DNA from: Nonomuraea angiospora
GTDB lineage: Bacteria > Actinomycetota > Actinomycetes > Streptosporangiales > Streptosporangiaceae
DNA length: 64,000 nucleotides
Direction: 5' to 3'
Assembly: GCF_014873145.1 (NCBI RefSeq)
Contig: NZ_JADBEK010000001.1
Coordinates: forward strand, 7,564,001 to 7,628,000
Each line of letters begins with the position of its first letter. The stretch's first letter is position 1. The notes beneath the pieces were generated by a model, which was not told the DNA's origin, did not search any database, and was given only the letters and a program-made list of their open reading frames with translations. Positions 48,979 to 61,615 of this stretch are shown one piece after another. Made by a program: the position numbers and the translations under genes.

Positions 48979-49893
48979 ATGAGGATCAAGGTGCCGGCGG
49001 CGTTGACCGAGTCGCACGTGAAATGGGACGGGGAGGCCGGTCGCGCCTGGTCCGCGGCGCTCCCCGCGCTGGCCGAGCGTTACCTGGAGGAGTGGGCGCT
49101 GCGGCTGGACGGGGAGCCCAGGCACGGGGTGGTGTCCCTCGTGCTGCCCGTCTTACGCGAGGACGGGACGAAGGCGGCGCTCAAGCTCCAGCCCGTCACC
49201 GACGAGAACGCCACCGAGGCCCCCGGCCTGCGCACCTGGGCCGGTGACGCGTCGGTGCTGCTGCTCGACTCCGACCCCGATACCGGCACCCTGCTGCTCG
49301 AACGCCTGGAGGCCGACCGGTCCCTGTCCGGCATGCCGGACGACATGAAGGCCCTGGGCATCCTCGCGGACCTCCTGGCCCGCCTGGTGTCCTACCAGGC
49401 GCCCGAGGGGCTGCGCCGGTTGGCCGACATCGCCCGGGCCATGCTGGACGACGTGGACCGGGCCGTGGCGAAGCTGCCGCGCGAGAGCGACCGCCACTGG
49501 ATGCGCTACTGCGCGGGCGCCGTCGGCGAGCTCGTCTCCGAGCCGGGCGACCGGCTGCTGCACTGGGACCTGCACTACGACAACGTGCTGGCCGCCGAAC
49601 GGGAGCCGTGGCTGAGCATCGACCCCAAGCCGCTGGCGGGCGACCCGGGGTTCGACCTGCTGCCCGCCCTGCACAACCGCTGGGACGACGTGGTCGCGAC
49701 CGGCGACGTGACGCGGGGCGTGCTGCGCCGCTTCGACCTCATGGTGGACCGGCTCGGCCTCGACCCCCGGCGGGCCGCCGGGTGGACGCTCGGCCGGGTG
49801 CTGCAGAACGCCCTGTGGGACGTCAAGGACGAGGAGACCGAGCTCGACGAGATCGGCCTCGCCGTCGCCGAGGCCGTGCGGCACCGCCTCTAG
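48979..49893 (+). CDS. APH(6)/hydroxyurea phosphotransferase-like kinase
   Basis: A 304-residue small-molecule kinase of the streptomycin 6-kinase/hydroxyurea phosphotransferase family. The catalytic loop is LLHWDLHYDNVLAAER (H-x-D-x4-N) and the metal-binding DFG equivalent is SIDPKPLAGDPGFDLLPAL. The N-lobe has an ALKLQPV lysine. Relatives confer aminoglycoside resistance in some hosts, but in soil actinomycetes many have unknown substrates. It follows menB by 27 bp and overlaps the convergent oxidoreductase by 4 bp. No antibiotic gene cluster is nearby. Confidence 0.88.
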   Translation: MRIKVPAALTESHVKWDGEAGRAWSAALPALAERYLEEWALRLDGEPRHGVVSLVLPVLREDGTKAALKLQPVTDENATEAPGLRTWAGDASVLLLDSDPDTGTLLLERLEADRSLSGMPDDMKALGILADLLARLVSYQAPEGLRRLADIARAMLDDVDRAVAKLPRESDRHWMRYCAGAVGELVSEPGDRLLHWDLHYDNVLAAEREPWLSIDPKPLAGDPGFDLLPALHNRWDDVVATGDVTRGVLRRFDLMVDRLGLDPRRAAGWTLGRVLQNALWDVKDEETELDEIGLAVAEAVRHRL

Positions 49894-50813
49894 ACCGTCA
49901 GGACGACCTTGCCCTGGCCGTGGCCGGTCTCGACCTCCCGGTGCGCCTCCGCCGCGTCCTCCAGCGGGTACGTCCTGCGTACCGGGAACTTGAAGGCGCC
50001 CTCGGCGTACAGGCGGGCGTAGCGCCCGAGCCGCTCGGCGGAGCGCTGCCCCTGCACCACCCGGACGCCCAGCTCGGCCGCCTTGCCGTGCTCGGCCAGC
50101 GTGACAATCCGGCCGCGGTCCTTGACCAGCTCGATCGAGACCTCCAGCGCGTGGCCTCCGGCCCCGTCGAGCGCGGCGTCCACGCCGTCCGGGGCGAGCG
50201 CGCGTACCCGGTCGGCGAGCCCTTCGCCGTAGACCACCGGGATCGCGCCGAGGTCGCGCAGGTAGTCGTGGTTGACCTCGCGGGCCGTGCCGATCACGGT
50301 GGCCCCGCGCCGCCGGGCGATCTGCACGGCCGCCGTCCCCACGGCCCCGGCCGCGCCGTGGACGAGCAGCGTCTCGCCCTCCGCGAGGCCGATCCCGTCG
50401 ATCGCCAGCTCGGCGGTCTGCACGCCCGCGGTCAGCCCGCCGGCCACCTCCCACGGCACCTCCGCCGGTTTGGGCGCCACGTCGGTCCCCTTCACCACGA
50501 TGTACTCGGCGTACGCGTACAGCGCCGAGAACCCGAGCACCTCGTCCCCCACGGAGACCCCGCTCACCCCGTCGCCGACCTGGTCCACCACGCCCGCGAA
50601 CTCGTTGCCGGGGATGCGCGGGAAGGGGGTAGGCCCTGTGTACGGCGGCAACCACCCCGCCCGTACGGCCGTGTCGAACGGCTGCACGCCGGCCGCACGC
50701 ACCCGCACCCGGACCTCGCCGGGACCCGCCTGCGGCGCGGGCAGCTCCATCACCTTCAGGACCTCCGGGCCGCCGGGTTCGGCGAAGGCCGCGGCTCTCA
50801 TCACGTCAGTCAT
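49890..50813 (-). CDS. NADP-dependent quinone oxidoreductase-like (MDR family)
   Basis: A 307-residue zinc-independent medium-chain reductase. The N-terminal GroES-like domain includes VQPFDTAVRAGWLPPY and PRIPGNEFAGVVDQVGDGV. The cofactor motif is VHGAAGAVGTAAVQIARRRG and the C-terminal end is HGQGKVVLTV. It likely reduces quinones or enals with NADPH. ATG 50813 sits seven bases after a -10-like CAGGCT in a promoter with 19-bp spacing and a dyad in the spacer, the hallmark of MerR/SoxR-type activation. The mRNA would be leaderless. It overlaps the APH gene by 4 bp. Confidence 0.9.
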   Translation of the reverse strand: MTDVMRAAAFAEPGGPEVLKVMELPAPQAGPGEVRVRVRAAGVQPFDTAVRAGWLPPYTGPTPFPRIPGNEFAGVVDQVGDGVSGVSVGDEVLGFSALYAYAEYIVVKGTDVAPKPAEVPWEVAGGLTAGVQTAELAIDGIGLAEGETLLVHGAAGAVGTAAVQIARRRGATVIGTAREVNHDYLRDLGAIPVVYGEGLADRVRALAPDGVDAALDGAGGHALEVSIELVKDRGRIVTLAEHGKAAELGVRVVQGQRSAERLGRYARLYAEGAFKFPVRRTYPLEDAAEAHREVETGHGQGKVVLTV

Positions 50814-50820
50814 GGGCCCC

Positions 50821-50851
50821 AGCCTGCAACCTCAACCTAAGTGGAGGTCAA
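50821..50851 (-). promoter_or_regulatory. MerR/SoxR-type promoter of the quinone oxidoreductase gene
   Basis: Minus strand: TTGACC (50851-50846), 19-bp spacer, CAGGCT (50826-50821). An 18-bp dyad, CCTCCACTTAGGTTGAGG (50847-50830), lies between. The long spacer with a central dyad is the arrangement MerR-family activators untwist. Confidence 0.65.
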
Positions 50852-50858
50852 CCCCGGG

Positions 50859-50874
50859 AAAGTCGCCAGACTTT
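50859..50874. promoter_or_regulatory. inverted repeat upstream of the flotillin operon
   Basis: AAAGTC-GCCA-GACTTT is a perfect 6-4-6 repeat. A further ACTTTCC at 50881 pairs with GGAAAGT overlapping the first arm. Together they lie ~80 bp before the operon start, followed by an AT-rich TTTATCTGTATATAG stretch that may be its -10 region. Confidence 0.5.
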
Positions 50875-50955
50875 TCGGGAACTTTCCACTTTAGTCGCGC
50901 TTTATCTGTATATAGTCCGTCAGGACATCAACGGGGGATGGGCACACGGGGCGGG

Positions 50956-51507
50956 ATGATCGAGTTCTTAGAGACCGTACTGAGCTTTCCGACTGTCATT
51001 TTCACTTTCCTTCTCGTGGTGGTCATCGGCTATTGGCTGACCGTGATCACCGGGCTGTTCGAACTGGAAGATGACGCCACCTGGCTGGGCCTCGGGGGAG
51101 TCCCGGCCGGGATCGTGCTTTCGCTGTTGATTGCCCTGGCCTGGTTGCTCTGCCTCATAGGCAGCGTGGTGGCGAGTGGCGGCCTGATGATCGCCGTCCC
51201 CTTCGCCGCGCCGGTCGGGGCCTGGCTGGCCATCCGTGGCCTGCTGGGTCCGCTGCGCAGGCTGTTCCCCGCCGGGGACCGGCACTCGCGTGGCGACTTC
51301 GTCGGACAGATGTGTGTGATCCGCACCGGCGCGGCCACCTCCGACTTCGGCCAGGCCGAGGTCACCGCCGCCGACGGCTCGTCCGCGGTCGTGCAGGTAC
51401 GCACCACCGGCGAGGACCGCCTCGCCCGCGGCGACAACGCACTCATCTTCGAATACGACAAAGACGGCGAATTCTTCTGGGTCATGCCCTACGAAAGTGA
51501 GCACTGA
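50956..51507 (+). CDS. NfeD/YqiJ-like membrane protein with C-terminal OB-fold
   Basis: A 183-residue membrane protein. Three helices (about residues 8-35, 48-75 and 80-100: FTFLLVVVIGYWLTVITGLF, GIVLSLLIALAWLLCLIGSV, GLMIAVPFAAPVGAWLAIRG) are followed by a soluble OB-fold (DFVGQMCVIRTG, SAVVQVRTTGEDRLARGDNA, FFWVMPYE). This is the YqiJ/NfeD arrangement that accompanies flotillins. Its stop overlaps the flotillin start (TGATG). ATG 50956 is chosen; ATG 50938 would add six residues. Probable role: membrane partner anchoring or organising the flotillin oligomer. Confidence 0.8.
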   Translation: MIEFLETVLSFPTVIFTFLLVVVIGYWLTVITGLFELEDDATWLGLGGVPAGIVLSLLIALAWLLCLIGSVVASGGLMIAVPFAAPVGAWLAIRGLLGPLRRLFPAGDRHSRGDFVGQMCVIRTGAATSDFGQAEVTAADGSSAVVQVRTTGEDRLARGDNALIFEYDKDGEFFWVMPYESEH

Positions 51508-53603
51508 TGGACGTCATCTCCACCGGCTTCGGCGTATTTCTCGCCGTCATCCTGGTCATCGTGATTGGCCTGGTCGTCGTCATAGGCCGCCTTTTCCGCA
51601 AGGTGGAGCAGGGCAAGGCGCTGATCATCTCCAAGGTCAACAAAGTGGACGTGACGTTCACCGGCGCGGTCGTCTTACCTGTCGTCCACAAGGCCGAGAC
51701 CATGGACATCTCGGTCAAGACCATCGAGATCGAGCGGACCGGCCGCGAAGGGCTCATCTGCCGGGACAACATCAGGGCCGACATCAAGATCACGTTCTTC
51801 GTCCGCGTGAACAAGACCGCCGAGGACGTCATCAAGGTCGCCCAGGCCATCGGCACCGTCCGCGCCAGTGACGAGTCGACGCTGCAGGAGCTGTTCAGCG
51901 CGAAGTTCTCCGAGGCGCTCAAGACGGCCGGCAAGCAGCTCGACTTCGTGGACCTCTACACCAAGCGCGACGAGTTCAGGGACCAGATCGTCCGGCTCAT
52001 CGGCACCGACCTGAACGGCTACAGCCTCGAGGACGCCGCCATCGACTACCTCGAGCAGACCTCGCTGCTGCAGCTCGACAAGAGCAACATCCTCGACGCG
52101 CAGGGCATCCGCAAGATCACCGAACTGACGGCGATCGAGCACGTGCGCACGAACGAGTTCCAGCGCAACGAGGAGAAGGAGATCACCCGCCAGAACGTCG
52201 ACGCCCGCGAGGCCATCCTGGAGCTGCAGCGCCGCCAGGCCGACGCCGAGCTCAAGCAGCGGCGGGAGATCGAGACCGTCAAGGCCCGCGAGGAGGCGGA
52301 GATCGCCCGCGTGCAGGCCGAGGAGCGGCTGCGCGCCCAGAGCGCGAACCTCAAGGCCGACGAGCAGCTCGGCGTGCAGAACGAGAACCGCGCCCGCGAG
52401 ATCGCCGTCGCCGAGAAGAACCGCGAGCGCGTGATCGCCATCGAGTCCGAGCGGATCGAGAAGGACCGCCTGCTGGAGGTCATCGCCCGCGAGCGGGAGA
52501 CCGAGCTGTCGCGCATCGCCAAGGACAAAGAGGTCGAGACCGAGAAGCGGACCATCGCCGAGGTCATCCGCGAGCGCATCGCGGTCGACAAGACCGTGGC
52601 CGAGCAGGAGGAGAGCATCAAGCGGCTGCGCGTGGTCGAGGAGGCCGAGCGCACCCGCCAGACCGTGATCATCGCCGCCGAGGCCGAGGCCCAGGAGAAC
52701 CTGGTCAAGGACATCAAGGCGGCCGAGGCCGCGGAGGCCGCGTCCAAGTTCAGGGCCCGCGAGGAGCTGGTGCTGGCCGAGGCCAGGCAGCAGGCGGCCG
52801 AGCTGGAGACCAGGGCCAAGATCCGGCTGGCCGAGGGCATCCAGGCCGAGTCGGCCGCGGCCGGGCTGGCGCAGGTGCAGGTCAAGGAGCGCGACGCCGA
52901 GGCCATCGAGAAGGTCGGCCGCGCGGAGGCGCTGGTGCTGAAGGAGAGGCTGGCCGCCGAGGCCGACGGCGCCAGGTCCATGGCGCTGGTCGAGGGCGAC
53001 CGGCTCAAGGCGCAGGCCGAGGGTGAGCAGGCGATGGCGCTGGCCGGGGCGGCCGCGGTGGGCGAGAAGCTCAAGGCCGAGGCCGAGGGTCTCACGCAGA
53101 AGGCGGCCGCGATGGCGGCGCTGGACGAGGCCAGCAGGGCGCACGAGGAGTACCGCCTGCGCCTGGAGGCCGACAAGGAGATCAGGCTCAAGCACATCGA
53201 CGTGTCGCGGCAGGTCGCGGAGTCGCAGGCCAGCGTGCTGGCCGCCGGTCTCGCCAAGGCGAACATCGACATCGTCGGCGGCGACACGATGTTCTTCGAC
53301 AAGGTGGTCGGGTCCATCACCGCTGGCAAGGTGGTCGACGGGTTCGTGGACCACTCGGAGGTCGCGGGGGCGCTGGTCTCGCCGTACGTGAACGGCTCGG
53401 CCAGCCTGGCGGCCGACCTGGCGAACCTGGTCGGCGGCGTGCGCAGCGAGGACATCAAGAACCTGACCGTCTCCGCCCTCCTCATGCGGCTCATCCAGGA
53501 CGGCGGCCCGCAGGCGACGGCGCTCGGCGAGCTGCTGGAGACGGCCCGCAGGCTCGGCGTGGCCGACTCCCCCGTGGCGGCGCTCGCCGGAGCCGCTCGG
53601 TGA
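51507..53603 (+). CDS. flotillin-family (SPFH domain) protein, YqiK-like
   Basis: A 698-residue membrane scaffold. An N-terminal hydrophobic anchor (~7-28) is followed by an SPFH domain (~35-215, with KALIISKVNKVDVTFTGAVV and DLNGYSLEDAAIDYLEQTSL). A very long charged coiled coil then runs from ~220 to ~560, rich in Glu/Arg/Ala heptads such as EEAEIARVQAEERLRAQSAN. The end (~600-698) is a conserved oligomerisation tail (IVGGDTMFFDKVVGSITAGK). Flotillins build ring-like cages on the membrane and mark functional microdomains. It is translationally coupled to the genes on both sides. Confidence 0.93.
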   Translation: MDVISTGFGVFLAVILVIVIGLVVVIGRLFRKVEQGKALIISKVNKVDVTFTGAVVLPVVHKAETMDISVKTIEIERTGREGLICRDNIRADIKITFFVRVNKTAEDVIKVAQAIGTVRASDESTLQELFSAKFSEALKTAGKQLDFVDLYTKRDEFRDQIVRLIGTDLNGYSLEDAAIDYLEQTSLLQLDKSNILDAQGIRKITELTAIEHVRTNEFQRNEEKEITRQNVDAREAILELQRRQADAELKQRREIETVKAREEAEIARVQAEERLRAQSANLKADEQLGVQNENRAREIAVAEKNRERVIAIESERIEKDRLLEVIARERETELSRIAKDKEVETEKRTIAEVIRERIAVDKTVAEQEESIKRLRVVEEAERTRQTVIIAAEAEAQENLVKDIKAAEAAEAASKFRAREELVLAEARQQAAELETRAKIRLAEGIQAESAAAGLAQVQVKERDAEAIEKVGRAEALVLKERLAAEADGARSMALVEGDRLKAQAEGEQAMALAGAAAVGEKLKAEAEGLTQKAAAMAALDEASRAHEEYRLRLEADKEIRLKHIDVSRQVAESQASVLAAGLAKANIDIVGGDTMFFDKVVGSITAGKVVDGFVDHSEVAGALVSPYVNGSASLAADLANLVGGVRSEDIKNLTVSALLMRLIQDGGPQATALGELLETARRLGVADSPVAALAGAAR

Positions 53604-53662
53604 CCGAGCGGAGCGAGGGCACCAATGAACACAGCACTGCCAGTCACAGGGCCGGAGGTCCT

Positions 53663-56600
53663 GTGACTGAGCTGAAGGCGGGTGAACTGGAGGCGGGGAC
53701 TTATGAGGTCCTCAGGAACAGGCTCCAGGCCCAGGCCAAGACCCTGACGGCGGCGGCCGAGGCGCTCAACGGGGCGCGGCTGAAGGTGTTCGGCGGCGCG
53801 GAGCTGCGCCTGCTGGGCACCGAACGGATCCGCACGGAGAACAACTGCGTCCCCAGGGACATCGTCTCCCTGGGCGACGTGATGCTCTTCGGCTACAACG
53901 TCTTCATCGGGCTCAAGCCGGAGACGGCGGTGGCGGACGTGTTCGCGGTGCACCGGTTCTCCCGGGACGGCGACGCGTTCAGGTTCGACGCCGACAAGCT
54001 GGAGACGCTGGGCGATCCGGCGTTCAAGAAGGACTTCGCCGAGCTGTACCGGTACTACAAGGAGACCAGGCTGCAGCAGCTGCGGCGGGTCGAGGGCAAG
54101 CTGCTGGCGGTGTTCCAGACGGGACCGGCGGACCTGCGGGTGCTGCGGTGGGCGGTCGACAACGGCGGAGTCCCGAAATATCTGGACAACCGGGGGGAGC
54201 GTGACCACACCTTTCCCCCGTCCCACGACTTCGAGTGGACGCCGACCACGCGCGACGACCACGTGCTCGGACGGCACCCGCACATCTCGATCGAGGGCGA
54301 GGTGTTCGTCGAGACGGTCGGCGGCGACCTGACCATCAAGATCGAGAACAACACGGAGACCGGCGCCGGCATCTACGCCGAGCCGGTCGCCGAGCAGCTG
54401 CAGAGCCTGGCGGACGCCGACGTCGAGTACGCCAAGGTGGGGCCGCTCGTCCTCATGCGGATCAGGCCGTACAAGGAGACCGAGTGGCGCCACCTGGTCT
54501 TCAACACCCGCACCAAGGCCGTCATCAGGCTCGACGGCCTGGGCCAGGCGTGCCAGCGCCTGCCCGAGGACCAGGGGCTGATCTTCCCCGGCGGCTACTA
54601 CCTGGCGACCGGGACCAGCAAGACGTTCGACACGGACGTGACGGACCTGGAGTTCGAGCGGGTGGTCCGCTCGCCCAACGGCGAGGACGTCCTGTACGTC
54701 TTCCACGCCAGGGGCGACGGGCGCTCGCTGCTGCTGCCGTACAACGTGATCAGGAAGGAGGTCGCCAACCCCATCGTCTGCCACGGCTACTCGCTGTTCG
54801 ACGACGGCACGATGGTGGTCTTCCGCGCGACCTCCGACGAGCCCACCCGGGTGCACCCGATGCAGGTCTGGCAGACGCCGTACGTCTCCGACACCTACGC
54901 CGCCGCGCAGCCCGCCGGGACGGGGCCCCTGGAGCGCATCGGCAACGCGGAGCTGGTACGCGGCATCTCCGACTGCCTGTCCGTGTCGCGGATGGTCGAG
55001 GAGATGGCGGCGTCCGCGGGGACGTTCGAGGGGCTGATCGCCGCCTGCACGCGGACGTTCGACTCCTACCACTGGCTGGAGGAGCACGGCCTGAGCGGGC
55101 CGCTCGCCGACGTGCGGGCCACGGCCGAGCAGGTGCTGGACGAGTACGAGAACGTCGAGCAGCTCACCCGCCAGGCCGCCGAGGCGCTCGCCACCGCCTC
55201 CGAGGAGACCACCCACCTGGTACGCGAGGCGCGCTCCGGCAGCCCGGTCACCGCGGACGCCTGGGTCGACACGCTGGCCACGCTGCGGCGGGCCCAGGGT
55301 CGCCTGGTGACGTTGCGCGAGACCCGCTACATCGACCTGGCCGGGCTGGACGCGCTGTCCTCCTCCGTGACGGAGGAGCTGGCCTCCGTCGGCAGGCGGG
55401 CGGTCGGCTTCCTGCAGGGTGCGGACGCGTTCACCGCCTACCACGCGGCCGTCGAGGAGCTCGCCGCCGCGGCGGCCGGGATCGGCACGGTCGCGGAGGC
55501 CGCCCCCGTGGCGGACCGGCTGGCCGCGCAGGCGGAGGGGCTGGAGGTGGTGACGGAGGTCGTCGGCTCGCTGGACATCGCCGACGCGACCGTGCGCACC
55601 TCCATCCTGGGCCGGATCGCCGAGGTCCTCGGCGGGGTGAACCGGGCGCGCGCCATCCTGGACGGGCGCCGGCGCGAGCTGCTCGGGGCGGAGGGGCGGG
55701 CCGCGTTCGCCGCCGAGTTCGCCCTGCTCGGCCAGGCCATCACGGGCGCGCTGGCCATGGCGGACACCCCGGCCAAGTGCGACGAACAGCTCGGGCGGCT
55801 GATGCTGCAGGTGGAGACCCTGGAGTCGCGCTTCGGCGAGTTCGACGACTTCGCGGCGCAGCTTTCCGCCAAGCGGGAGGACGTCTACGAGGCGTTCTCG
55901 GCCCGCAAGCAGACCCAGCTCGACGACCTCGCCCGGCGCGCCGACCGCGTCTTCGCCTCCGCCGAACGCATCCTGGGCAGCATCACGCGCCGCCTCGGCA
56001 CGCTCGGCTCCCTGGACGAGGTCAACACCTACTTCGCCACCGACCCGATGGTGGCCAAGGTCCGCTCGGCCGCCGTGGAGCTGCGCTCGTTCGGGGACGC
56101 CGTACGGGCTGAGGAGCTGGACGGGCGCGTCAAATCCGCCCAGCAGGAGGCCGGGCGGGCCCTCCGGGATCGCCTCGACCTCTTCTCCGACGGCGGCGAG
56201 ACGCTCCGGCTCGGCCGCCACCGCTTCGCCGTCAACACCCAGCCCATCGACCTGACGCTGGTGCCGCACGACCAGTCCATGTACTTCGCGATCACCGGGA
56301 CCGACTACCGCTCGCCGGTGCCCGCCTCCTTCGCCGACACCCGGCCCTTCTGGGACCAGTTGCTGGTGTCGGAGACTCCTGAGGTGTACCGGGGCGAGCA
56401 CCTGGCCGCCTCGCTCCTGGACTCCCTCTCCCCTGGGGCCGCTCTTGAGGACGCGGTACGGCAGGCGGTGGAGTCGCGCTATGACGAGGGGTACGAGCGC
56501 GGGGTCCACGACCACGACGCCGCTGCCATCCTGGACGTGCTGGTACGGCTGCGGTCGGGGGCGGGGTTGCTGCGGTACCCGGCCGAGGTGCGGGCGGCGG

Positions 56601-58687
56601 CGCAGCTGTTCTGGGCGTTCGGGATGGACGAGGTTTCACGTAAAACATTCACCACGCGGGCCGTGTCGCTCGTCCGCGCCCGCGCCGTCTTCGGCCCCAC
56701 CCCTGCCCTGGACTCGCTGGCGGTCGAGCTGGGGACGTTGATCGCCGGCTTCCTGGCAGGTCTCCGCACGATTGCGCCGGGCCCCACCGACGCGGCCCAC
56801 CAGTGGCCGGCACCGGGTGTCGTAGGCGTGGCACCTCACACCGCCGGCCACGCGCCCACCCACCCCGACGCGGCACCCACCGGCGCCGGGTCGGCGGGAT
56901 GGGGTGCGGCGGCACTCGGCACAACGGGGACGGCGCCCAGCACGGGCGCGGGCACGGGCGCCGGGTCGGCGGTTGACGCGGGCATCGGGGCGGGGGCCGG
57001 GCTCGCCGGGGAGTATCTCGTCGAGGAGCTGGGCAGCAGCCCGTTCGGGTTCGTGACCAGCAAGGCGGCGCGCGACCTCCTCGACGGTTTCCGGCAGACC
57101 CTCGGCCCGGCCAAGGTCCGGGAGTTCGAGGAGGAGCTCAAGAGCGTCCCCCTCTCCGAGCGCCTGCAACTGGCCCACGCCTGGATGGCCGCCTACCACC
57201 AGGGTCCCGAGGTGGCGGAGGCCATCGCGGTGCAGCTGTGCGACGTCCCCCGGCACGACTCCAGCGCCGCCACCCAGGAAACCGTGGACGGCCTCCTGGG
57301 CACCCACCCCCGCATCAAGGACCGCAAACTCGACATCCGGCTGGACGAGCTCCTCACCCGGACCCGCCGCTTCCGCCGGGAGCGGGTCCCGGCGTACCGG
57401 GCCTACCAGCGGCGCAGGAGCGAGCTGGTCGAGGCCGAACGCCACCGCCTGCGCCTGGACGAGTACAAGCCCAAGGTCATGAGCGCCTTCGTCCGCAACC
57501 GCCTCCTCGACGAGGTGTACCTGCCGCTGATCGGCGACAACCTGGCCAAGCAGCTCGGCGCGGCGGGCGCGGGCAAGCGCACCGACCAGATGGGTCTCCT
57601 CCTGCTCATCTCACCGCCCGGCTACGGCAAGACGACCCTGATGGAGTACGTGGCCAGCCGCCTGGGCCTGGTGTTCGTCAAGGTGAACGGCCCCGCCCTG
57701 GGCCACGAGGTGACCTCGCTGGACCCGGCGGACGCGCCCGACGCGACGGCCAGGCAGGAGGTGGAGAAGATCTCGTTCGCGCTGGAGACGGGCAACAACA
57801 CGCTGCTCTACCTCGACGACATCCAGCACACCTCGCCGGAGCTGCTGCAGAAGTTCATCTCGCTCTGTGACGCCCAGCGGCGCATCGAGGGCGTGTGGAA
57901 CGGCCGCACCCGCACGTACGACCTGCGCGGCAAGCGGTTCGCGGTGTGCATGGCGGGCAACCCGTACACCGAGTCCGGACAGCGTTTCCGCATCCCCGAC
58001 ATGCTGGCCAACCGCGCCGACGTCTGGAACCTGGGCGACGTCCTGTCGGGCAAGGACGACCTGTTCGCGCTGAGCTACGTGGACAACGCGCTGACCTCCA
58101 ACCCGGTGCTCGCGCCGCTCTCCGGCCGCGACCGCGCGGACGTCGAGCTCCTCGTACGGCTCGCCAGGGGCGACACGACCGTCCAGCCCGACCAGCTCCG
58201 TCACCCGTACAGCAAGCCCGAACTGGACCAGATCCTCAGCGTGCTGGCCAAGCTCGTACGCGTCCAGGAGGTCGTGCTGGCCAACAACCAGGCCTACATC
58301 GCCTCGGCCGCCCAGTCCGACGCGGCCCGCACCGAGCCCCCGTACCGGCTGCAGGGCTCCTACCGCAACATGAACAAGCTGGCCGAGCGCATCGTCCCCG
58401 CCATGAACGACGCCGAGCTGGAAGCGGTGATCGACGACCACTATCTGGGGGAGGCCCAGACCCTGACCACGGACGCCGAGGCCAACCTGCTCAAGCTGGC
58501 CGAACTGCGCGGCCGCCTCACCCCGGCCCAGGCCGGACGCTGGGCGGAGATCAAGACCGCCTACCTCAAGGCCAAGGCCCTGGGCGGCGCCGACGACGAC
58601 CCGATGGCCCGGGCCGTGGGCGCCCTCGGCCTGCTGGCCGACCGCGTGAGCGAGGTGGGCACCGCCATCCGCGAAGCCGACCGCTAG
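53663..58687 (+). CDS. giant AAA-family ATPase with DUF3686 (DNA repair ATPase) N-terminus
   Basis: A 1674-residue cytoplasmic ATPase. The N-terminal third matches the DUF3686 domain (GTERIRTENNCVPRDIVSLG, VFIGLKPETAVADVFAVHRF). A helical region (~450-1000) follows, then a low-complexity Gly/Ala/Thr/Pro linker (~1040-1112). The AAA module has Walker A SPPGYGKTT at ~1317 and Walker B LLYLDDIQH at ~1380, with a lid to ~1550. GTG 53663 is preferred because GGAGG sits four bases upstream; GTG 53600 overlaps the flotillin stop and would add 21 residues. Annotated relatives are called DNA repair ATPases without direct proof. A parS-like site lies inside the gene. Confidence 0.88.
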   Translation: MTELKAGELEAGTYEVLRNRLQAQAKTLTAAAEALNGARLKVFGGAELRLLGTERIRTENNCVPRDIVSLGDVMLFGYNVFIGLKPETAVADVFAVHRFSRDGDAFRFDADKLETLGDPAFKKDFAELYRYYKETRLQQLRRVEGKLLAVFQTGPADLRVLRWAVDNGGVPKYLDNRGERDHTFPPSHDFEWTPTTRDDHVLGRHPHISIEGEVFVETVGGDLTIKIENNTETGAGIYAEPVAEQLQSLADADVEYAKVGPLVLMRIRPYKETEWRHLVFNTRTKAVIRLDGLGQACQRLPEDQGLIFPGGYYLATGTSKTFDTDVTDLEFERVVRSPNGEDVLYVFHARGDGRSLLLPYNVIRKEVANPIVCHGYSLFDDGTMVVFRATSDEPTRVHPMQVWQTPYVSDTYAAAQPAGTGPLERIGNAELVRGISDCLSVSRMVEEMAASAGTFEGLIAACTRTFDSYHWLEEHGLSGPLADVRATAEQVLDEYENVEQLTRQAAEALATASEETTHLVREARSGSPVTADAWVDTLATLRRAQGRLVTLRETRYIDLAGLDALSSSVTEELASVGRRAVGFLQGADAFTAYHAAVEELAAAAAGIGTVAEAAPVADRLAAQAEGLEVVTEVVGSLDIADATVRTSILGRIAEVLGGVNRARAILDGRRRELLGAEGRAAFAAEFALLGQAITGALAMADTPAKCDEQLGRLMLQVETLESRFGEFDDFAAQLSAKREDVYEAFSARKQTQLDDLARRADRVFASAERILGSITRRLGTLGSLDEVNTYFATDPMVAKVRSAAVELRSFGDAVRAEELDGRVKSAQQEAGRALRDRLDLFSDGGETLRLGRHRFAVNTQPIDLTLVPHDQSMYFAITGTDYRSPVPASFADTRPFWDQLLVSETPEVYRGEHLAASLLDSLSPGAALEDAVRQAVESRYDEGYERGVHDHDAAAILDVLVRLRSGAGLLRYPAEVRAAAQLFWAFGMDEVSRKTFTTRAVSLVRARAVFGPTPALDSLAVELGTLIAGFLAGLRTIAPGPTDAAHQWPAPGVVGVAPHTAGHAPTHPDAAPTGAGSAGWGAAALGTTGTAPSTGAGTGAGSAVDAGIGAGAGLAGEYLVEELGSSPFGFVTSKAARDLLDGFRQTLGPAKVREFEEELKSVPLSERLQLAHAWMAAYHQGPEVAEAIAVQLCDVPRHDSSAATQETVDGLLGTHPRIKDRKLDIRLDELLTRTRRFRRERVPAYRAYQRRRSELVEAERHRLRLDEYKPKVMSAFVRNRLLDEVYLPLIGDNLAKQLGAAGAGKRTDQMGLLLLISPPGYGKTTLMEYVASRLGLVFVKVNGPALGHEVTSLDPADAPDATARQEVEKISFALETGNNTLLYLDDIQHTSPELLQKFISLCDAQRRIEGVWNGRTRTYDLRGKRFAVCMAGNPYTESGQRFRIPDMLANRADVWNLGDVLSGKDDLFALSYVDNALTSNPVLAPLSGRDRADVELLVRLARGDTTVQPDQLRHPYSKPELDQILSVLAKLVRVQEVVLANNQAYIASAAQSDAARTEPPYRLQGSYRNMNKLAERIVPAMNDAELEAVIDDHYLGEAQTLTTDAEANLLKLAELRGRLTPAQAGRWAEIKTAYLKAKALGGADDDPMARAVGALGLLADRVSEVGTAIREADR
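56632..56647. other. parS-like ParB-binding site inside the ATPase gene
   Basis: GGTTTCACGTAAAACA matches parS (TGTTTCACGTGAAACA) at 14 of 16 positions, and its 14-bp core differs at one. It is encoded by a run of AT-rich codons (GTT TCA CGT AAA ACA) that is foreign to this high-GC gene. Confidence 0.7.
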
Positions 58688-58801
58688 CGCCGGCCCACCC
58701 TGGTGCGGCACCCGCGAACCCATCCACCGCCCGCCGCACCAGGCCACCACCCGCCACCGCACGCCACGACAAGCCACCACCCGGCCGCCGCCCGAGCCAC
58801 C

Positions 58802-58880
58802 GCACGCCACCACTGCCTGCCGCACCAGGCCGCCGCACACCACCACCGCCTGCCGCACCAAGCCGCCGCACGCCACCACT
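58802..58880. repeat. 33-bp tandem repeat in a 346-bp non-coding gap
   Basis: Units begin at 58802, 58835 and 58868 (two full, one partial), each starting GCAC(G/A)CCACCAC. The surrounding gap 58688-59033 is C/A-rich (GCC, CAC, CCA triplets) and shows more degenerate copies upstream. The period is a multiple of three, but no gene-like ORF with a ribosome site is present on either strand. Confidence 0.7.
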
Positions 58881-59033
58881 CAACGACCACCACCCGACGA
58901 CCACCGGCCACCGCGCCCGGCGCACATCGCCACCGCCATCCGCCGACCCCGGCGCGCCATGTGCAGGGCGTCTGTGCTGGAGACCGCGCGTGATGAGCGG
59001 CGCGGAGGGGGCGGCCCCCGAGGACGGCGGGGG

Positions 59034-59504
59034 CTACGTCGTCAGGTCGCGGGTGGCCGCGCGCTGGAGGGCCGTGGCTCGGGTGACGTAGTCGAGGATC
59101 AGCTCCAGCTCGTCATCCGTGTACCGCTCGTACAGCTCCCCCAACGCCGCCACGAACGGCTCGAACAGCTCGCTGAACCCGGCCAGCCGCTCGTAGTTGA
59201 TCTCCACGATGACCCGCCGCCGGTCCCGCGTGTCACGCACCCGCCGCACCAGCCACTTCGACTCCAGCCGGTCGATCAGCCCGCTGACGGTGGCCGGGGC
59301 CAGCCCCGCGTGCTGGCCGATCTCCCCCGCCGTCAGCGGCCCCATGCGTTGCAGCAGGTCGAGCGTCTTCTCCTCGGTCATGCCGAGCCCCAGCCGCTCG
59401 CCCATGGCGGTGTGGTACATCACGGCGGCGTTGCTGTTGTCCCGCCCGGCCATGCTGAGGGCCTCCAGCAAATTCTTTCGCCGCTCCGAAATATCTCTGG
59501 ACAC
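59034..59504 (-). CDS. MarR-family transcriptional regulator
   Basis: A 156-residue MarR protein. The helix-turn-helix is LTAGEIGQHAGLAPATVSGL followed by the wing RDTRDRRRVIVEINYERL. GTG 59504 has GGAGG nine bases upstream. It is divergent from an FAD monooxygenase, and a perfect 20-bp palindrome lies in the 50-bp gap. It most likely represses the monooxygenase and itself, responding to the monooxygenase substrate or a related aromatic. No sensor cysteine was noted. Confidence 0.92.
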   Translation of the reverse strand: MSRDISERRKNLLEALSMAGRDNSNAAVMYHTAMGERLGLGMTEEKTLDLLQRMGPLTAGEIGQHAGLAPATVSGLIDRLESKWLVRRVRDTRDRRRVIVEINYERLAGFSELFEPFVAALGELYERYTDDELELILDYVTRATALQRAATRDLTT

Positions 59505-59524
59505 AGGTAAAGCCTCCGCATATA

Positions 59525-59544
59525 TTTCGTTCGACCGAACGAAA
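59525..59544. promoter_or_regulatory. MarR operator between MarR and the monooxygenase
   Basis: TTTCGTTCG-AC-CGAACGAAA is a perfect 9-2-9 palindrome centred between the two divergent genes, ten bases before ATG 59555. Confidence 0.8.
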
Positions 59545-59554
59545 GGTTATCACC

Positions 59555-60775
59555 ATGCAGGCTCTGATCATAGGCTGCGGCATCGCCGGACCCGTCACGG
59601 CGATGGCCCTGCGCGAGGTGGGCATCGACGCCCAGATCTTCGAGGCGTACGAGCAGGGCGCGGAGGACGTGGGCTCGTTCCTGAACGTCGCCTCCAACGG
59701 CCTGGCCGCGCTCCGGGTGCTGGGCGCGCACCACAAGGTCCTGGCGCAGGCCATTCCCACCCCACGCATGGTCATGTGGAGCGGATCGGGCAAGCGGCTG
59801 GGCGAGGTGGCCAACGGGCTGCGGCTCGACGACGGCACGGTGAGCCATACCGTCCTGCGGTCCGACCTCTACCGGACCATGCGTGACGAGGCGACCCGGC
59901 GCGGCATCGAGGTCACGTACGGCAAGCGCCTGGTCTCGTACGACGAGAGCGAAAGGAAGGTGACGGCGAGGTTCGCGGACGGCACGGAGGCCACGGGCGA
60001 CCTGCTGATCGCGTGCGACGGCGTGCACTCGCGCACCCGCACGATCCTCGACCCGCAGGCCCCCGCCGCCCGCTACAGCGGCCTCTACAGCTTCGGCGGG
60101 ATCATCAAGGACGCCGGTTTCACCGGCGAGCCGGGCGTCTACAACATGGTCTTCGGCAAGCGCGCGTTCTTCGGTTACACGGAGCGGCGAGCCTGGGGCG
60201 GAGAGCGGCAGCTTGCGTCACCAGCGGAGCCCCGTGCGAGCGCGACCATGGGCGCGGTGCCCGAGCCGGGCGAGACCTGGTGGTTCGCGAACCTGCCCCG
60301 GCGGCTCGGCGACGTTCCGGAGGACTGGAAGCCGGTGCTGGTCAGGGCGTTCGAGGACGACGCGAACTTCTCCGCCGAGCTCATCCGGCGCAGCGACGTC
60401 GGGCCGGGGTCGCCGATCTACGACCTGCCGCCGGTGCCCGTGTGGCACCGCGGCCGGGTCCTGCTGATCGGGGACGCCGCGCACGCCACCTCACCCAGCT
60501 CCGGCCAGGGCGCCTCGCTGGCCGTCGAGGACGCGGTCGTGCTGGCCAGGTGCCTGCGCGACAGCGGGAGCCACACGAAGGCGTTCGAGCGCTTCGAGGC
60601 CGAACGGCGGCCCAGGGCGGAGCGGGTGGTGGCGTACTCGAGGACGATCAGCAACAGCAAGGCCGCGGGCCCGGTCGCCCGGGTCTTCCGCGACCTGATG
60701 CTGCCGTTCTTCCTGAAGAAGAGCGCGAGCCAGGAGTCACTCGCCTGGATGTACCGCTATCAGGCGAGCCTGTGA
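59555..60775 (+). CDS. FAD-dependent monooxygenase (aromatic hydroxylase type)
   Basis: A 406-residue class A flavin monooxygenase. The ADP-binding motif is IIGCGIAGPVTAMALREVG, the DG-type motif LLIACDGVHSRTR and the second FAD motif VLLIGDAAHATSPSSGQGAS. It hydroxylates or degrades aromatic or tetracycline-like substrates; relatives include TetX-like and salicylate-hydroxylase-like enzymes, so substrate prediction is unsafe. ATG 59555 lies just after the MarR operator. The last 39 bp overlap the convergent DapA-like gene. Confidence 0.92.
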   Translation: MQALIIGCGIAGPVTAMALREVGIDAQIFEAYEQGAEDVGSFLNVASNGLAALRVLGAHHKVLAQAIPTPRMVMWSGSGKRLGEVANGLRLDDGTVSHTVLRSDLYRTMRDEATRRGIEVTYGKRLVSYDESERKVTARFADGTEATGDLLIACDGVHSRTRTILDPQAPAARYSGLYSFGGIIKDAGFTGEPGVYNMVFGKRAFFGYTERRAWGGERQLASPAEPRASATMGAVPEPGETWWFANLPRRLGDVPEDWKPVLVRAFEDDANFSAELIRRSDVGPGSPIYDLPPVPVWHRGRVLLIGDAAHATSPSSGQGASLAVEDAVVLARCLRDSGSHTKAFERFEAERRPRAERVVAYSRTISNSKAAGPVARVFRDLMLPFFLKKSASQESLAWMYRYQASL

Positions 60776-61615
60776 GACCGCCGCCTCCCCGGCCGGGACC
60801 AGCGGCAACCGCACGTCCGGGGTCGGGATCAGGCCCTGGGCGTGCAGCACTCCCTTGATCACGGTGGGGTTGGGCTCGGCGAAGAGCGCGGCCGAGAGCC
60901 TGGCCAGCCGGTGCCCGAGCGCCCTCGCCCTGGCCGCGTCGCCCGCGTTCCAGGCCTCCACCAGCTCGACGAAGCCGCGGGTCTGCAGATGCGCCGAGGC
61001 GAGGATCCCGCCGACGGCGCCCAGGGCGAGCAGCGGCGAGATGAACGCGTCGTCGCCGCCCACCACCTCGAACCCCTCGGGCAGGTCCCCCAGCAGGTCC
61101 ACCGCGTCCTGGTCGATCCCGCCCGCCGCGTACTTCATGCCCGCGATCATCGGGTGCGCGCCCAGCTGCCGGAAGGTCGCGGCGCGGACCGCCTGACCCG
61201 TCCGGTACGGGATGTGGTAGATCACCAGTGGCACCGGCGTCGCCTCCGCCAGCGCCTCGAAGTGCGCGATCACGCCGCGCTCGCCCGGCCGCAGGAAGTA
61301 CGGCACCGTCACCAGCGCGGCGCCGACCCCCGAGGGCAGGCCCTGCAGGGCCCGGGCCGTCGAACGCGTGTCGTTCCCCGTCACCCCCACCGTCAGCAGC
61401 GCCTGCCGCTCGGCGCACACCCGCGCGCACGCCTCGATCACCAGCTCCCGCTCGCCGGGGTCGAGCGCGGCCACCTCGCCCGTCGTGCCCAGCGCGACCA
61501 GCCCGGCGGCGCCCTGGTCGAGGTAGTCCGAGGCGAGCTTCTCGATCGCGTCCACGGCCACCTCTCCCGACGAGGTGAACGGGGTGACCAGCGGTACGTG
61601 TAGTCCTCTCAGCAT
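60737..61615 (-). CDS. dihydrodipicolinate synthase/N-acetylneuraminate lyase family protein
   Basis: A 292-residue TIM-barrel aldolase. The Schiff-base lysine is Lys161 (GMKYAAGG), Tyr133 lies in VIYHIPYRTG and Thr44-Thr45 in LGTTGEVAALDPGER; these match the positions in E. coli DapA. However, it stands alone, beside a LysR gene rather than lysine genes, so it could be a catabolic or sialic-acid-type aldolase. ATG 61615 is well placed and is divergent from the LysR regulator, which may control it through a dyad at 61675. Confidence 0.88.
   Translation of the reverse strand: MLRGLHVPLVTPFTSSGEVAVDAIEKLASDYLDQGAAGLVALGTTGEVAALDPGERELVIEACARVCAERQALLTVGVTGNDTRSTARALQGLPSGVGAALVTVPYFLRPGERGVIAHFEALAEATPVPLVIYHIPYRTGQAVRAATFRQLGAHPMIAGMKYAAGGIDQDAVDLLGDLPEGFEVVGGDDAFISPLLALGAVGGILASAHLQTRGFVELVEAWNAGDAARARALGHRLARLSAALFAEPNPTVIKGVLHAQGLIPTPDVRLPLVPAGEAAVSQARLIAVHPGE

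Follow-up and report, generated by a model that had tools for sequence, protein, structure and literature searches.

A parS-like Core Spelled by Rare Codons

Why should a gene of extreme GC content carry five consecutive codons that end in A or T, and why should these codons spell something close to parS, the 14-16-bp chromosomal site that is bound by ParB/Spo0J? We examined this question for one locus of Nonomuraea angiospora, which lies in a 64-kb stretch of DNA (called the window below, at its full length; contig positions 7564001-7628000). The features of the locus are listed in Table 1. The 14-bp core, GTTTCACGTAAAAC, is identical to parS (GTTTCACGTGAAAC) at 13 of 14 bases, and the sole difference is at position 10. 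The match at 13 positions that a first-pass annotation of the sequence had reported was thus confirmed, and the site itself is real, but the range assigned to it (56632-56647) is one base too wide on each side.

Table 1. Features at and around the parS-like site (window coordinates)
Feature	Coordinates	Strand	Description
14-bp parS-like core GTTTCACGTAAAAC	56633-56646	+	Perfect half GTTTCAC and degenerate half GTAAAAC (GTTTTAC on the other strand)
Trailing AT	56647-56648	+	Adjoins the degenerate half; belongs to the conserved 16-bp block 56633-56648
Host gene, 1695-aa protein	53600-58687	+	DUF3686 ("ATPase involved in DNA repair"), DUF7902, C-terminal AAA domain
Upstream gene, same apparent operon	51507-53603	+	Called flotillin-like in the first-pass annotation
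Zinc-type oxidoreductase	49890-50813	-	Syntenic anchor; adjoins the site in congeners without the host gene
Dihydrodipicolinate synthase (DHDPS) family gene	60737-61615	-	Syntenic anchor on the other side; present in 7/8 stretches compared

In frame, the 16-bp block reads GTT TCA CGT AAA ACA T (V S R K T), and the site corresponds to codons 1012-1016 of the host gene, between DUF7902 and the AAA domain. Each of the five codons is seldom used in this gene (GTT, 2/129; TCA, 2/80; CGT, 4/146; AAA, 4/44; and ACA, 2/112), and the product of their synonymous frequencies is 1.7e-8. The GC3 of the gene is 95.2%, and five consecutive A/T-ending codons occur nowhere else in it, so the AT-rich run that had been singled out in an extreme-GC gene is indeed the only one. 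A scan of the 64-kb window allowing up to three mismatches to parS returned two matches against 0.75 expected, which is unremarkable by itself.

The Site Lies near the Main parS Cluster

A genome-wide scan of the N. angiospora chromosome (one contig of 13.09 Mb) revealed seven perfect parS sites, all located at 7748674-7752187. The window site was the only one-mismatch parS in the 13.09 Mb, and two sites had two mismatches. The reversed pattern, which served as a control, gave no match in the same genome at up to one mismatch and four at up to two, and it gave none in further genome scans, including those of congeners lacking the host gene and of the family sample. The match at 13 of 14 bases is therefore better than expected by chance (control, 0).

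The TIGR00180 model of ParB matched once in the genome, at 7749439-7749969, inside the parS cluster; no second ParB or Noc-like paralogue was detected in N. angiospora by this model, paralogues beyond its reach being possible. The window site is 128 kb, or 1% of the contig, away from the perfect-parS cluster, and the corresponding distance is 102-138 kb in the 13 genomes (N. angiospora and 12 congeners) in which both lie on one contig. The site thus falls into the neighborhood of parB and the perfect-parS cluster, and the placement of the window near oriC, as inferred in the first-pass annotation, was borne out as proximity to this cluster. The constancy of the distance may be a simple effect of conserved gene order.

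The Core Is Conserved in Nonomuraea Orthologues, Mismatch Included

The host gene is present in 43 of 54 Nonomuraea genomes (N. angiospora counted), and the site was read in all 43. The orthologues keep the site codons: the 14-bp core, mismatch included, is identical in 42 of the 43, and the 16-mer GTTTCACGTAAAACAT is exact in 41, with G030 differing at base 16. The exception to the core, G061, carries GTTTCACGTGCAAC, whose degenerate half also has one mismatch, but at another position. The 43 orthologues were then aligned by codon, with the protein rather than the motif as anchor (405 columns). Among the stretches shared by 41 or more of the 43 sequences, the 16-bp block was the longest, and the next measured 8 bp. 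Nine bp of the block were invariant in 43/43, and the next longest invariant run was 5 bp. The residue that follows the site is F, L, S, C, or I, and its codon begins with T except in G030.

The Site Persists in Congeners without the Host Gene

A host-gene match was absent in 11 of the 54 genomes. Six of these 11 keep GTTTCACGTAAAAC, in every case beside the oxidoreductase, the flanking gene of the operon in the window. In five of them (G031, G012, G067, G014, and G001), no more than 70 bp separate the site from the 5' end of the match to the oxidoreductase; in G071 the site lies 618 bp upstream of this match, separated from it by other sequence, and has C as base 16. Three more genomes (G022, G027, and G069) have a drifted site at the same locus. 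In the last two, G028 and G013, the oxidoreductase is present without an adjacent site, indicating that the site is not essential. In these two genomes no parS with up to two mismatches was found in the 140 kb from the cluster outwards on that side, G028's own cluster aside; two three-mismatch matches in G028 look like chance, and a compensating site was rejected. Further one-mismatch sites were found on other contigs (three in G028 and one in G013). Neither the AAA nor the flotillin-like protein was detected in the six site-bearing stretches without the gene or in the oxidoreductase stretches of G028 and G013.

Because the core persists beside the same neighbor where the host gene is missing, and because the homologues of other genera encode different residues (see below), the conservation is one of DNA independently of coding, and selection acts on the DNA and not on the protein, as had been proposed from the window sequence. 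The first-pass annotation had further placed the site in a flotillin/AAA operon. The host gene does encode an AAA domain; however, a search of the upstream ORF against Pfam and NCBIfam profiles found no family at an E value of 0.001 and did not confirm flotillin, and the operon looks like an incidental host, since the site exists without it.

The history of the operon was followed on a tree of 21 genomes that was built from ten oriC-region reading frames and the oxidoreductase (quick search, SH-aLRT support, midpoint root for drawing). Operon presence changed four times, and at least three of these changes are forced by well-supported branches. The operon-less genomes that bear the site form three separate lineages (G071; G001/G014/G022/G027/G069; and G067/G012/G031), and the site is absent in two operon-less lineages of this tree. 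Loss of the operon with the site left behind is a simpler reading than gain in some lineages, because the site is at the same codons in 43/43 genomes with the gene.

Homologues of Other Genera Lack the Motif

Of 90 family genomes examined, 40 gave a match to the host gene, and 38 of these 40 belong to 29 genera other than Nonomuraea. The motif was absent at the homologous codons in all 28 homologues read outside Nonomuraea (28 of the 38 genomes; 23 genera). All 28 have Trp in the pattern [RK]-x-x-W, where Nonomuraea has VSRKT[F/L/S/C/I] (VSRAT in G061). Since these homologues lack the motif and have an invariant Trp, the most probable origin of the site is in the Nonomuraea ancestor or earlier, with the protein sequence giving way to it. 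The locus thus shows clearly how a DNA site can take precedence over the encoded protein, even at a position occupied by Trp in 28/28 homologues of other genera.

The exact 14-mer was found in 10 of 11 Nonomuraea genomes sampled and in one of 189 genomes from the rest of the family. The latter genome, G125, has a host-gene copy of its own (L238) that lacks the motif, and ParA and ParB were absent from the 3 kb examined around its 14-mer.

The 16-mer Adjoins parAB Elsewhere

A scan for exact GTTTCACGTAAAACAT showed that, among the at least 102 matches listed outside Nonomuraea, 20 share a stretch of at most 8 kb with parA/parB; both parA and parB are present in 16 of these 20 (near-duplicate genomes retained), and a perfect parS is also present in 14. 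For stretches of this size, the expected co-occurrence with parAB is well below one, by a rough estimate rather than a matched control. A PDB search with the correct strand gave matches to ParB, Noc, and Spo0J chains. The same variant beside parAB elsewhere suggests that a full palindrome may not be strictly required.

The Site Drifts with parS in One Clade

In G022, G027, and G069, the sequence at the oxidoreductase locus is ATGTTCTACGTGGAAC (complement, GTTCCACGTAGAACAT), and the site is read as GTTCCACGTAGAAC in the opposite orientation. The parS clusters of the same genomes (L216, L218, and L219) have mixed GTTCCAC and GTTTCAC halves; in the other 18 genomes examined, the cluster parS is GTTTCACGTGAAAC, with three single-mismatch exceptions (G063, G010, and G028). 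The site of this clade thus differs in the same way as the parS of its own genome, indicating co-variation with parS, which was seen in these three genomes only and represents a single event in one clade. One half is still degenerate, on the other side.

As a separate observation, the clade cluster sequence GTTYCACGTGRAAC is a GTTTCAC/GTTCCAC mix, and the ParB of the clade was aligned with the others.

Perfect Sites Are Confined to the Cluster, and Distal Sites Are One Base Short

A total of 52 sites were read at this locus in the 54 genomes. None was perfect; each had one degenerate half, and two intact half-sites were not found in any. We then counted sites with up to one mismatch in ten genomes (N. 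angiospora plus nine congeners with long contigs, which were treated as circular). In the cluster 53 of 55 sites were perfect, versus 0 of 25 distal sites (Fisher p about 1e-18, which overstates the difference since the sites are related). None of the 25 distal one-mismatch sites lay farther than 582 kb from the cluster, a distance of 4.6% of the contig; these sites are not independent and represent about eight families. When eight congeners (mostly drafts, which place contigs incompletely) were added, with three relaxed-parS genomes left out, there were 90 perfect and 3 imperfect sites inside the cluster and 0 perfect and 37 imperfect sites outside. Perfect parS sites in Nonomuraea are thus confined to about 3-5 kb.

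About five further families of distal single-mismatch sites, shared among congeners, were found in a related clade (G070, G024, G063, and G028; L278-L294). In one distal family the mismatch sits at different positions (L281 versus L294), three genomes having GTTTCACGTGAAGC and G028 having GTTTCATGTGAAAC, each with exactly one mismatch.

Discussion

Our preferred reading, to which we assign a probability of roughly 80%, is that the site is a distal single-mismatch parS that is recognized by ParB, weakened, and prevented by selection from becoming perfect in one of its halves. Recognition by the chromosome's own ParB is very probable, given the drift with parS in one clade, the 16-mer beside parAB elsewhere, and the location of the distal sites near the cluster. 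We infer that binding by ParB would be weaker than at perfect sites. We lean toward the view that this weakness is itself selected, but the mismatch may instead be neutral.

ParB is loaded at parS as a CTP-dependent clamp that recruits SMC. A predicted weak ParB site could give low-rate ParB nucleation, and hence SMC loading, about 120 kb from the main cluster. Such sparse distal loading would extend or mark the origin domain without competing with the cluster, and the host gene would play an incidental part. To our knowledge, both the reason for extra parS sites away from the origin and the tuning of site strength are open questions. A natural site that is one base from perfect, genus-wide and beyond the host gene, makes site-strength tuning testable by small edits.

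A more speculative form of the same idea, which we put forward only tentatively, is a two-tier centromere in which perfect parS would be restricted to the 3-5-kb cluster at parB, whereas distal sites would be held one base short, possibly for another mode of ParB binding. The half-degenerate site would then anchor ParB with a clamp that rarely closes and slides, and it would form a fixed origin-domain boundary rather than an extra loading site. A directional element was rejected, as the site is inverted with respect to the cluster in G071 and the G022 clade.

How does a weakened distal parS compare with known systems? The site resembles chromosomal parS of the GTTTCACGTGAAAC type in 13 of 14 bases, in its proximity to the parS/parB cluster, in following the parS of its own genome in one clade, and in the occurrence of the same 16-mer beside parAB elsewhere; intragenic parS sites are also known. 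In contrast to chromosomal parS, the Nonomuraea site has one degenerate half in every copy, far from the cluster, is conserved in its imperfection genus-wide, and is present without the host gene. G056, a genome of the same class (9.2 Mb), likewise has several parS sites spread over hundreds of kilobases; however, 22 of the 26 sites listed there (of 27) are perfect, over 327 kb, whereas none of the Nonomuraea distal sites counted is. The Noc-binding sites (NBS) of Firmicutes are similar in being parS-derived sequences dispersed away from the cluster, but NBS need the ParB paralogue Noc, and their substitutions relative to parS differ from those of the Nonomuraea site. A Noc-like ParB paralogue was rejected as the binder, because TIGR00180 gave one ParB in N. 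angiospora.

The best surviving alternative is an ordinary accessory parS, bound by ParB, whose mismatch is a frozen ancestral variant that is tolerated and functionally meaningless. Scattered degenerate parS sites are common in bacteria, and the tolerance of ParB is apparent from the same variant beside parAB in unrelated bacteria, where a perfect parS often accompanies it (14/20, among the at least 102 listed). We nevertheless consider this alternative rather unlikely. A single A-to-G change would perfect the copies outside the gene, yet 0 of 52 sites are perfect. Moreover, the mismatch is at another position in G061 and in the G022 clade and still leaves exactly one degenerate half, its position also differs between genomes in the other distal family (L281 versus L294), and no perfect site was found outside the cluster in the genomes counted. 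The Lys codon was considered as the source of the mismatch (GAA would be Glu) and was rejected, since copies outside the gene keep the mismatch.

Some other DNA-binding protein, specific to the genus, might recognize GTTTCACGTAAAACAT, its likeness to parS being coincidental or derived. The element is asymmetric, with the trailing AT conserved beside the degenerate half only, and it is nearly confined to one genus in the family sample, as such a protein would lead one to expect. This reading is improbable, however, in light of the G022-clade site, which differs in the same direction as parS, the 16-mer adjoining parAB in other bacteria, the location of distal one-mismatch sites as a class near the cluster, and the single TIGR00180 ParB in the genome.

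It is very unlikely that the site serves as a local regulatory element for the oxidoreductase or the operon, even though five congeners without the gene and the three genomes of the G022 clade have it immediately upstream of the oxidoreductase. In the window, 5.8 kb separate the site from the oxidoreductase, and the site sits well within another gene; regulation of the oxidoreductase was therefore rejected for operon-bearing genomes. In addition, the gene beyond the site varies among the operon-less genomes, being DHDPS in four (L157, L158, L159, and L162) and MarR in G014 (L160), and neither adjoins the site in L161. Finally, a constraint at the protein, codon, or RNA level (a rare-codon pause or mRNA structure) or plain chance, to which the position in coding sequence and the rare codons might point, can be dismissed: copies lie outside the gene where the gene is absent, which rules out protein and codon constraint, other genera encode other residues, and the genome-wide reversed-pattern control, which had no match, together with the conservation rules out chance.

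Three further features were noted in passing. The interval between the oxidoreductase and DHDPS (window 50814-60736) is highly variable among congeners (compared with L157-L162, L256, and L263), holding the entire operon together with MarR and FAD genes in some, just the MarR and FAD genes in others, and next to nothing in the rest. Upstream of the oxidoreductase, the window has CCTCAACCTAAGTGGAGG at 50830-50847, which we take to be similar to MerR/SoxR-type operators; a similar box precedes the oxidoreductase in 14/14 genomes compared at this locus. In rhizobia (L040, L059, L068, L089, L091, and L094) the 16-mer is embedded in long reading frames, and the peptides flanking it are alike in several related species; the same is the case in Pontibacter (L044, L049, L061, and L097); these are possibly other intragenic parS-like sites that are conserved within their own genera.
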